From: Promethearchaeota archaeon
GTDB lineage: Archaea > Asgardarchaeota > Lokiarchaeia > Sigyniarchaeales > SOKP01
Assembly (NCBI GenBank): GCA_011364925.1
Contig: RDOA01000019.1
Span: 1-58,180, forward strand
Length of the DNA: 58,180 nt
Direction of reading: 5' to 3'
Part shown: one piece after another, positions 7,380 through 10,629 of the stretch
Numbering within the stretch: the stretch's first letter is position 1
Layout: every line of letters begins with the position of its first letter
The notes under the pieces: generated by a model
What the model was told of the DNA's origin: nothing
What the model saw: only the letters and a program-made list of their open reading frames with translations
The model's database searches: none
Made by a program: the position numbers and the translations under genes

Positions 7380-8039
7380 GTGTGTGCTAAACTAAAAGGG
7401 AAACTTTTTCCCAGAAAAAGCAAAGAAAAAGAAGAGCTCGTGATTAAAGCTAAAGCTCACATAAGAAAAATAGCATTAGCAAATAAAACTTATAACAAAA
7501 GAGCAGAGATAGCAAGAAAGAACGCAAAAATAGCGTTAAAGAGAGGGGAAAGAAATAGAGCTAAAAACTATCTTATTCAACATAAACAATATCAGATGAA
7601 GGTGGATCGCGCAAACAATATTCGAGCCAAGATTGAACGCCAGATCGAAGCGATTGAGGAAGGACAGATGATTTCTATGACTGGAGACTTAATGGGAGGG
7701 ATTAGAGACGAGTTAAAAACTATTGCCGGTAGCGCAGCGCCTGAAAAAGTAGCAGAGATTGCGGAAGATTCTGAACAATATGTGTCAGAGATTGAAGAGT
7801 CAGCTGAAATCCTTGCCGGAGATCCCGAAATTGACCTAGCAATTGATGTTACTGACGAACTCAACCAACTTGAGACGGAGATGCTTTTAGAACAAGGTGG
7901 GCAAATGCCAGAAGTACCAGATGAAGAGCTTTCATATATTTCAGAATTCGATGAGATAGAAGAAGAACCCGAAATACGGACTAAAGCTAAGCTAGAAGAC
8001 GAAATAGACAAATTAAGAAAAGAGTTAGAAGGAAGCTAA
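7380..8039 (+). CDS. ESCRT-III protein of the Snf7 family (CHMP4/6/7-like class)
   Basis: A 219-residue, largely helical protein with a basic N-terminal half and an acidic C-terminal half, as in Snf7 proteins. The alpha1-alpha2 hairpin includes ARKNAKIALKRGERNRAKNY and QHKQYQMKVDRANNIRAKIE. Helices 3-4 include MGGIRDELKTIAG and PEKVAEIAEDSEQYVSEIEE, the site of the conserved DKVDxLMxxI-type segment of CHMPs. Residues 176-184 (MPEVPDEEL) closely resemble the MIM2 motif by which CHMP6 binds the Vps4 MIT domain (LPEVPSEPL). The C-terminal helix KLEDEIDKLRKEL could be a second, MIM1-like site. ESCRT-III polymers remodel and cut membranes. The GTG start is forced by an upstream stop. The 3' neighbour converges, with 15 bases between the stops. 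Vps4, ESCRT-II and ubiquitin genes are not in this window. Confidence 0.85.
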   Translation: MCAKLKGKLFPRKSKEKEELVIKAKAHIRKIALANKTYNKRAEIARKNAKIALKRGERNRAKNYLIQHKQYQMKVDRANNIRAKIERQIEAIEEGQMISMTGDLMGGIRDELKTIAGSAAPEKVAEIAEDSEQYVSEIEESAEILAGDPEIDLAIDVTDELNQLETEMLLEQGGQMPEVPDEELSYISEFDEIEEEPEIRTKAKLEDEIDKLRKELEGS

Positions 8040-8054
8040 AAAATTATAGCTTTA

Positions 8055-10151
8055 TTAAGTATAATATCTTTTTCTATCAAGCTCATTAGCTGAACCTCTT
8101 AAAAATTCTTCATCTTCTAAATCGGAATTTAGTGCTTCAATATTTTTTTCAATTATATATATTTCTTTTTGCAGGTTCTTAAAGTTCTTAAAATAATCGA
8201 TTTCAGAAATATCTCCAGATTCAAATTTGGAGTCTAAAGCTTTTAAAGTTTCTTCAAGGCTATATTTCTCTTTTTCTAAGTTAAACATCTTTTTTTCTCT
8301 TGATTTATCGTACTTCTTCGAATTGAAGCTAGAGTTTTCATTTGAATGATAAGGATCAGAATTACGATTAAATAAATCTGAGAGATGGTTTCGGGAGTAT
8401 TCTTGATATTTGGGGATTTTTCTAGAGTTTCCATTAGGACTATAATCAGCTGGATTGTTAAGAAAATCATTAAAGTTATTTAGTCCGTTTCTAGAAGGGA
8501 AGGATTGCTCGTATCTTTGTAGCTGTTCTAACTTTCTCATCAGTAAGTTTTTTTGATCTAAGTCAGAAAGGTCATTACCAAACCCTCTGCCGTATTGTTT
8601 AGGCTCATAGTTTTGTATTCTGTTAGTGTCGTAGAAGTTTTGTAAGAAAAACTCATTTTGATTATAGTTGGGAGGTAAATACTTACGCATTGCGTGCCCA
8701 AAGTAATTTAAGTCCTCGGGAGTTTGTATTTGGCTCATCCTCTGATTAGGAGGCTTAAGATTATTTTGATAAAGCATTTGATTATCGGGCATGTTTTGGT
8801 AGAGCCCATATGGATTCTTGTTGTTGTAGGGATTAATAACTTGGTTCTGAGGGAAATAAGGACCCTTATTCGATATTATATTAGGGTTTTGATTAAACAA
8901 AGTTGACGCTATGTTATATTCAGACATTTTTTTGTTTGAATTGACATTATTGTATTGACACTTCAAACTAAAGAACGAATTTATTGCTTCTTCAATATAG
9001 TTGGAAATATCACCTAAGTCAACTTCGATATTATATAACTTTTTAGCCGCTAACTTGTCGTAAATAACAGTTTCATCAAAGCATCGAGCAAGTAAGAGAT
9101 AGTCTAACACCCTTGAAATAGAATTTGGGGGAAGCGTAAATTCATATCTCCCATAAGGAAATTCAATATAGAGTTTCTTGAATATTTTCCCTCTTATTTG
9201 AACTTTAGTTAAATCCTTTACAGGAGCTTTAAATATACCGTCTTTTTTCCTCCTTCGCTTTCCATGTTCACGAACAAAAGATAAATCGAAATTGGTTATA
9301 AAGAGGATGCCTTTATTCTTCTTGTATTTATCCTCCGTATTAAGTCCGTTAGCCAATTTAGCGTATATTGCGTAAACTGGCTTTTCCTCCTCTGCCAAGT
9401 TGAGGAATTTAATATAATTCTTGAAGTAAAAAGTGATTTTATCGATGAACACTAAATTTTTTGAAATATTTACAATACTAGTGTTTATGGTATTCACATT
9501 ATTCTTAATAAAATCAATTATTGAAGTATAGCTTCGATTTAGATTTTCAAGTATGTCTTCAATGATTCGAATATTAGAATTCTGTTGCATGTAGATATCG
9601 AAAAAATATTCTTTATTAATTGATAAATGCTGGATAAAATTGCGAATCTTCTCTATCAGATTTTCTTTTGCGTATATAAACAGTTTAAAGAGCGCTAGTA
9701 AATCCAATTCCATAGTAGGATAATGATAACATTTAACGGGTGGAGCTCTTGCATCTAGGATTTTATTTTTTAATGAGTAAAGTGAATTTAATAGATCTCT
9801 AAGTGGATCTATAAACGAACGAGAATTTTTAATTAGTTCCATGAAATTTTTTTCAAGATCTTCTTTCTTTTCATAGATATTTATTATTTGATGAGAATGA
9901 CACTTTGGGCAAGACTTTAAGAGTTGGTTGGTTCTAACTATATTATCCGTTCCACAGTCTTTACAAGTTTTTTTATTGCCTGATTCAGGAACGATGATAT
10001 TTTTTGAATTACATTCTTGACATATATAAGTATCAATTTTTTCCTCATGCAAACAATCGGAACAACAACTAACACCACAATCTTCACAATAATAAGCTAA
10101 CTTTACATTTCTTTGACAGAAACGGCAGATTTGGAATTGTTGCTCCAACAT
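8055..10151 (-). CDS. Multidomain protein: cross-brace zinc finger, helices, GRAM/PH-like domain, N/Q/P/Y-rich region, C-terminal helical hairpin
   Basis: A 698-residue protein without a known name. Residues 9-47 hold paired cysteines (C9-x2-C12, C22-x2-C25, C30-x2-C33, C44-x2-C47) like a B-box or related cross-brace finger. A CxxC...CxxC zinc ribbon follows near 62-82. Helical or coiled-coil sequence fills about 90-270. Residues 285-370 look like a GRAM/PH fold: a KGILFITNFDLSF strand pair, a basic loop GKRRRKK, then VKDLTKVQIRG, KKLYIEFPYGRYEF and a closing helix. Residues 400-630 are rich in Asn, Gln, Pro and Tyr and are probably disordered. The end (LEETLKALDSKFESGDISE onwards) is a helical hairpin common in Asgard proteins. 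The domain set suggests a membrane- or partner-binding adaptor. Its gene converges on the ESCRT-III gene. Confidence 0.7.
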   Translation of the reverse strand: MLEQQFQICRFCQRNVKLAYYCEDCGVSCCSDCLHEEKIDTYICQECNSKNIIVPESGNKKTCKDCGTDNIVRTNQLLKSCPKCHSHQIINIYEKKEDLEKNFMELIKNSRSFIDPLRDLLNSLYSLKNKILDARAPPVKCYHYPTMELDLLALFKLFIYAKENLIEKIRNFIQHLSINKEYFFDIYMQQNSNIRIIEDILENLNRSYTSIIDFIKNNVNTINTSIVNISKNLVFIDKITFYFKNYIKFLNLAEEEKPVYAIYAKLANGLNTEDKYKKNKGILFITNFDLSFVREHGKRRRKKDGIFKAPVKDLTKVQIRGKIFKKLYIEFPYGRYEFTLPPNSISRVLDYLLLARCFDETVIYDKLAAKKLYNIEVDLGDISNYIEEAINSFFSLKCQYNNVNSNKKMSEYNIASTLFNQNPNIISNKGPYFPQNQVINPYNNKNPYGLYQNMPDNQMLYQNNLKPPNQRMSQIQTPEDLNYFGHAMRKYLPPNYNQNEFFLQNFYDTNRIQNYEPKQYGRGFGNDLSDLDQKNLLMRKLEQLQRYEQSFPSRNGLNNFNDFLNNPADYSPNGNSRKIPKYQEYSRNHLSDLFNRNSDPYHSNENSSFNSKKYDKSREKKMFNLEKEKYSLEETLKALDSKFESGDISEIDYFKNFKNLQKEIYIIEKNIEALNSDLEDEEFLRGSANELDRKRYYT

Positions 10152-10327: not shown

Positions 10328-10621
10328 TCACTTGATAATTTTTACTTTTTGCCCTAAAGCCTGCCCAGGAACACCAGCTTTTTTGAAGTGAGCTCTAATT
10401 GCGCCTTTGTTCCCATGAGCTCGAGTTATTGTCCCTTTTAATTCTTTTCCCGTTGAACTTGTCCAGACTACAGTTCTTCCAATTAATTTATTTGCATCTT
10501 TTCTGCTATTAATATTAGGGAATACGATTATGCAGTGTTTGGGGTGTAAAGTGTGGCGACCTTGTTTATAGTTAGAAATTACACCTTCAAGTCCTAAAAT
10601 TTCTAATTTACTCAGTGACAT
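10328..10621 (-). CDS. Ribosomal protein eL33 (L35Ae)
   Basis: A 97-residue protein of the large ribosomal subunit. GRTVVWTSSTGKELKGTITR and AHGNKGAIRAHFKKAGVPGQ are the hallmark blocks of eL33, shared by eukaryotes and some archaea. AAAGGAG (complement of 10631-10637) precedes the start: it lies 9 bases from the ATG at 10621 and 6 from an in-frame TTG at 10624, so either could initiate. The N-terminal lead (MSLSKLEILGLEGVISNYKQG) is typical in length. It stands alone as a transcription unit, divergent from the ceramidase-like gene. Confidence 0.93.
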   Translation of the reverse strand: MSLSKLEILGLEGVISNYKQGRHTLHPKHCIIVFPNINSRKDANKLIGRTVVWTSSTGKELKGTITRAHGNKGAIRAHFKKAGVPGQALGQKVKIIK

Positions 10622-10629
10622 CAAAATTG

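Follow-up and report, generated by a model that had tools for sequence, protein, structure and literature searches.

A lokiarchaeal Znr_CC_PH_SB gene lies tail to tail with ESCRT-III and may encode an ESCRT-I-like, membrane-targeting scaffold

The window analyzed here, a 58,180-nucleotide stretch of DNA from Promethearchaeota archaeon (contig RDOA01000019.1), carries at 8055-10151 a gene that encodes a protein of the already described Znr_CC_PH_SB family, and the tail-to-tail link of this gene to ESCRT-III is old and spans the Asgard phylum. The best reading of the data is that the product is a PH-targeted, ESCRT-I-like scaffold that brings ESCRT-III to the membrane and is not an obligate ubiquitin adaptor, and we consider it likely that it represents an Asgard-specific, ESCRT-I-like, membrane-targeting scaffold. 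This bears on the open question of how ESCRT was delivered to membranes before eukaryotic endosomes, and adds the phylum-wide link to ESCRT-III, the relative age of core and linker, the status of the protein as a Vps23 match, and its retention in a family without detectable E2 enzymes.

The open reading frame has an ATG start and no internal stops. Because open-frame homologues are present in 54 of 58 relatives, and a search of the phylum's genomes returned matches in 213 of 228 (a count that includes weak matches in families f15, f18, f25, and most of f17, which may reflect the hairpin alone), we regard it as a real gene. The closest public record is 82% identical, and related records are Lokiarchaeota MAGs. 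The convergent neighbor encodes a Snf7/ESCRT-III protein (39.7 bits, above the Pfam cut-off of 27.3), so the preliminary description of this DNA was correct in placing the gene tail to tail with ESCRT-III with 15 bases between them. No terminator-like hairpin was found in this gap; the sole terminator-like site near the junction falls within the ESCRT-III gene, on the far side of which lies a gene for 3-dehydroquinate synthase II.

That description could match the architecture to no named family, but it corresponds to the published Znr_CC_PH_SB or Znr_PH_CC_SB family (asCOG cog.011556; Makarova et al. 2024 mBio, PMC10936438). That paper describes the family as absent from eukaryotes and likely ancestral in Asgardarchaeota, and considers it a likely component of ESCRT-I whose PH domain associates with membranes. 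The window protein has the features of the family, with zinc modules at the N-terminus (three predicted sites), helices at 92-250, a PH domain, and a C-terminal steadiness box, and it shares with the family the Asgard-specific distribution and the ESCRT neighborhoods. It departs from that account in two respects: in the Lokiarchaeal form, an added N/Q/P/Y-rich linker of roughly 200 aa separates the PH domain from the steadiness box, and zinc sites one and two appear to belong to a single cross-brace C8 finger, not to a pair of ribbons. The terms "tail-to-tail" and "convergent" are absent from the text of PMC10936438, figures and tables aside, and we claim no priority for the arrangement. No other paper naming the family was found in the open-licence literature, and no experiments on the family were found in the literature.

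Table 1. Features of the gene, its protein product, and its surroundings
Feature	Position in window	Strand	Basis
Whole gene, Znr-CC-PH-(linker)-SB protein, 698 aa	8055..10151	-	ORF and homologues
Cross-brace-like C8 finger, residues 9-47, two predicted zinc sites	10011..10127	-	Eight Cys at least 95% conserved
Zinc ribbon, residues 63-84, third predicted zinc site (C63, C66, C81, C84)	9900..9965	-	Four Cys conserved
Long-helix (coiled-coil-like) domain, residues 92-250	9402..9878	-	AF2 helices
PH/GRAM-fold domain with basic beta3-beta4 loop, residues 256-357	9081..9386	-	AF2, Foldseek, Pfam
Disordered N/Q/P/Y-rich linker, residues 415-612, long only in the window's order	8316..8909	-	pLDDT, composition
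Linker motif A, KNxLMRKLEQ, residues 534-543	8523..8552	-	Conserved across f1; AF2 short helix 530-546
Second linker motif, Y-x2-Y-x2-NHLS-[DE]-x-F, residues 582-594	8370..8408	-	Conserved across f1
Steadiness-box helical hairpin (Vps23 core-like), residues 608-696, core 618-676	8064..8330	-	Profiles, Pfam, AF2
Gap separating the convergent gene pair, 15 nt	8040..8054	.	Stop codons tail to tail
ESCRT-III (Snf7) gene, 219 aa, convergent partner	7380..8039	+	Pfam Snf7 5.2e-10; homologues adjoin gene across phylum
Ribosomal protein L35Ae, upstream, co-directional; context only	10328..10624	-	Pfam Ribosomal_L35Ae 3.9e-16

The N-terminal region (residues 1-91) contains 12 near-invariant cysteines (9, 12, 22, 25, 30, 33, 44, 47, 63, 66, 81, and 84), which are predicted to form three zinc sites; each of the 33 N-termini aligned has all 12, spaced according to one pattern. 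The spacing of the finger is C-x2-C-x9-C-x2-C-x4-C-x2-C-x10-C-x2-C. In Pfam scans, zf-B_box matched 12 of the 46 orthologues (best 8.1e-5) but not the window protein itself; the last ligand pair of the finger is C-C, not H-H. PDB profile matches of the finger include RING, B-box, and FYVE chains, while Pfam zinc-ribbon matches in the region of residues 63-84 were sub-threshold. A cross-brace-like finger, as in the preliminary description, is thus supported by the first eight conserved cysteines together with the B-box-, RING-, and FYVE-type matches, and the last four cysteines fit a zinc ribbon. A FYVE finger was rejected: although the cysteines are spaced in a similar way, AYYCEDCG stands where the R(R/K)HHCR basic motif would be.

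AlphaFold2 (AF2) predicted helices at 92-134, 147-178, and 191-245 (pLDDT about 90-97), followed at about 256-357 by seven strands and a C-terminal helix, the latter with high confidence both in the full protein and in the domain folded alone (mean pLDDT 84). Fold prediction with a Foldseek search, the check proposed for a GRAM/PH fold originally placed at 280-370, found this fold slightly more N-terminal; the best Foldseek matches to the domain were Lam6, TBC1D23, MTMR2 (myotubularin), BTK, and BBS5. Pfam matches to the PH region of orthologues included bPH_3 (2.9e-7), GRAM (9.6e-5), and Vps36_ESCRT-II (0.0011), and the top PDB sequence-profile match, albeit weak (E 0.17), was the Vps36 GLUE domain (2cay). 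The domain is basic, with a mean net charge of +10 across 46 orthologues, beta3-beta4 loop included, a charge that would be compatible with binding to acidic lipids.

When the full-length model was compared, the best Foldseek matches were the DH-PH modules of RhoGEFs, including Tiam1 (E 1.8e-6, probability 1.00), as would be expected of a small-GTPase exchange factor of the DH-PH type. However, the superposition had an rmsd of about 20 A and a TM score (target) of about 0.3, Pfam scans of the window protein and its orthologues gave no DH family match, and Foldseek with the PH domain alone placed diverse PH/GRAM domains on top. This candidate was rejected on the basis of the rmsd and the lack of sequence support, and we hold an exchange factor to be very improbable; the matches are most simply taken to reflect long helices that precede a PH domain. 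The protein also resembles Vps36 of ESCRT-II, another ESCRT protein that has both zinc fingers and a PH-like domain and to which weak Pfam and PDB matches were obtained. In contrast with Vps36, the window protein has no winged-helix domains, and its fingers precede the PH domain instead of splitting it. GLUE had no Pfam match in the window protein and matched 3 of 46 orthologues at E <= 0.1 (best 0.0011), and for the EAP30 tandem winged-helix there was no Pfam match in the window protein and no evident counterpart among the AF2 elements.

The C-terminal helical hairpin reported in the preliminary description was confirmed (pLDDT mostly >90 by AF2), and profile comparisons identify it as a steadiness box of the Vps23 type, the hairpin of ESCRT-I assembly. 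This steadiness box, which the description had missed, is the strongest single clue to function. A profile search with the hairpin returned yeast Vps23 first (1e-4, 4e-4, 8e-4), followed, with generic coiled coils interspersed, by TSG101 (0.029), Vps28 (0.11), and Vps37B (0.24). Of all Pfam families, Vps23_core matched the most orthologues (24 of 46, best 4.8e-6); in the window protein it scored 16.1 bits, under the cut-off of 26.8. In the first homologue search, the hairpin of the query also matched short proteins in other Asgard genomes, one of which, checked in full, has both UEV and Vps23_core above cut-off. With this Asgard UEV-Vps23 as query, the sole match in the window's genome was the hairpin of gene 8055-10151 (2.7e-7), making this protein the closest detectable Vps23 equivalent in the window's family. 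Like Vps23/TSG101 of ESCRT-I, it carries a steadiness box at the C-terminus after a helical region, but zinc fingers and a PH domain take the place of the UEV; no UEV domain was detected in the window protein by Pfam, and none was found in the window's genome. Vps28 was found in this genome (contig C64), and, besides the ordinary Vps28, a match to the Vps28 C-terminal domain lies inside a 797-aa ORF (G000:C21:67960-68238, minus strand).

We then consider the linkage to ESCRT-III across Asgard genomes. Of 86 loci with a visible downstream side, 63 have a convergent ESCRT-III gene within 250 nt; in the remaining assessable loci, ESCRT-III lies within 2.5 kb in 8 and further out in 2, and none is in view in 13. 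The neighborhood of orthologues, which the preliminary description had proposed to examine, is therefore one in which ESCRT-III is kept beside the gene across the phylum. The tight pairs fall in eight families (62 of the 63; f1, f2, f8, f10, f13, f21, f22, and f27), with one in a doubtful bin. G047, listed as f4 (L047, L053), was given no family of its own in this count and is a probable mixed bin, because its ESCRT-III falls close to the f22 one in the tree. Families f5, f6, f7, and f20, and part of f1, f2, and f4, have lost the link or did not show it. The chance probability of the linkage is about 1e-26, a rough guide only, with families treated as independent, and the pattern suggests one ancestral gene arrangement that was inherited and retained. 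A convergent pair is not transcribed together, and what the linkage reveals is therefore slow rearrangement or selection for proximity, not a complex.

In most f8 genomes, the stop codons of the convergent genes are 0-8 nt apart (e.g., L077, L084, L089, and L090), and such tight, conserved tail-to-tail pairs might permit antisense coupling. The pair adjoins Vps4, Vps25-type, and EAP30 genes at some f8 loci, and Vps4 and a Vps25-type gene in f13. Within the window's genus, the Vps4 and ESCRT-II genes cluster with the other ESCRT-III paralogue at a different site (contig C38 of G009), and the gene pair is still together. Neither this second paralogue nor EAP30 was found in the window's assembly (G000), while genomes of the same genus have both beside Vps4; the absence is probably an assembly gap, despite a completeness estimate of 100%. 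The ESCRT-III tree has two deep clades, with the gene's neighbor in one of them in most families and the f8 neighbor a divergent, long-branched member of the other. A single conserved ESCRT-III paralogue at the junction was rejected on these grounds, and the partner is therefore "an ESCRT-III", not provably the same one throughout. Elsewhere, a 1169-aa ORF with a Snf7 domain match (L055:2167-5676, minus strand) lies beside Vps4, Vps28, and UEV-Vps23, apparently an ESCRT-III-like domain fused to a large protein.

Given that the gene is linked to ESCRT-III and not to Vps28, the protein could instead be an ESCRT-III/Vps4 regulator that binds the convergent ESCRT-III through its finger or linker motifs and times assembly, with no need of an ESCRT-I headpiece. 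ANCHR acts in a somewhat similar way in abscission, and the window protein resembles ANCHR/ZFYVE19 in having a B-box-like finger in an ESCRT-linked protein. An ANCHR-like B-box match was obtained among orthologues (1.3e-5), and the linker contains conserved short motifs. However, this match concerns a common finger type, the window protein differs from ANCHR/ZFYVE19 in the absence of the FYVE basic motif and in an otherwise unrelated architecture, the linker motifs are limited to family f1, and retention of the steadiness box across homologues points to ESCRT-I. We consider such a regulator quite improbable. The steadiness box and the phylum-wide ESCRT-III neighbor instead support the role of ESCRT adaptor put forward in the preliminary description, which withstood both of the refuting conditions set for it, and with it the ESCRT-I-like scaffold.

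Another possibility is a ubiquitin adaptor, in which the zinc finger would read ubiquitinated cargo (as compared with the NZF of yeast Vps36) and hand it to ESCRT while the PH domain anchors the protein. The window's genome does encode E2 enzymes, the finger resembles cross-brace fingers of the B-box/RING type, and an analogy with Vps36 is drawn in PMC10936438. Set against this, Pfam scans of the window protein and its orthologues gave no NZF match. Moreover, in a mixed panel, E2 turned up in every genome but one (12 of 13), the one without being G055, the panel's only f8 genome; a separate search, in which the control genomes were also silent, gave no E2 in any of 12 f8 genomes. As the same E2 query was positive in the 12 panel genomes, its sensitivity is adequate for Asgard E2s. 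UEV was likewise not found in the one f8 genome searched. The f8 family would resemble Thorarchaeota, a group in which, according to PMC9192718, ubiquitin genes have yet to be identified. The f8 genomes without detectable E2 nevertheless keep the gene tight beside ESCRT-III. The conserved core role therefore probably does not require ubiquitin conjugation and appears to be independent of it, ubiquitin as the essential link is not supported, and an adaptor of this kind is unlikely.

For the PH-targeted scaffold, we infer that the protein binds both lipid and Vps28. The PH domain would dock on acidic, probably inositol-headgroup, archaeal lipids, and the steadiness-box hairpin would pack against that of Vps28 to give an ESCRT-I headpiece, doing the job done elsewhere by the Vps23 steadiness box. 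A separate, freestanding steadiness-box protein has been reported in Lokiarchaeota (PMC9192718) and could be the Vps28 partner instead. The zinc module may bind a further partner, whether cargo, ESCRT-II, or an ESCRT-III tail, and the assembly would concentrate the neighboring ESCRT-III subunit at the membrane site. We also put forward, tentatively and as a rather doubtful extension, that Znr_CC_PH_SB was the ancestral Asgard ESCRT membrane-targeting subunit, connecting lipid to ESCRT-III without ubiquitin and standing in for Vps23 in Lokiarchaeia, with ubiquitin reading by UEV-Vps23 a parallel, added layer. If true, lipid recruitment would be older than, or independent of, ubiquitin recruitment. 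The combination of a PH domain and an ESCRT-I hairpin, an ESCRT-III neighbor, and survival in genomes without detectable E2 makes ubiquitin-independent, lipid-driven recruitment directly testable, for which four small proteins suffice: the gene product, Vps28, the neighboring ESCRT-III, and Vps4.

The long low-complexity stretch noted in the preliminary description exists, being mostly disordered by AF2 prediction (pLDDT about 30-40 except for short helical stretches), with N/Q/P/Y/S/G making up 56% of residues 400-612. Its standing as a defining part is not supported: its length is about 140-270 aa within the window's order and just 20-65 aa in most homologues elsewhere, and the prion-like stretch is therefore a lineage-specific elaboration. 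By sequence comparison, the zinc-PH-SB core is evidently ancient and the long linker an expansion peculiar to the lineage. Phase separation by the linker is unsupported beyond composition. In Lokiarchaeia, it may serve as a flexible tether bearing short binding motifs. Late-domain motifs were considered and rejected, with P[ST]xP sporadic and PPxY frequent in the genus but not outside family f1, as was an MIT-interacting motif in linker motif A, which lacks conservation at the last hydrophobic position. The two motifs of Table 1, both confined to family f1 within an otherwise poorly conserved disordered linker, are candidate docking sites.
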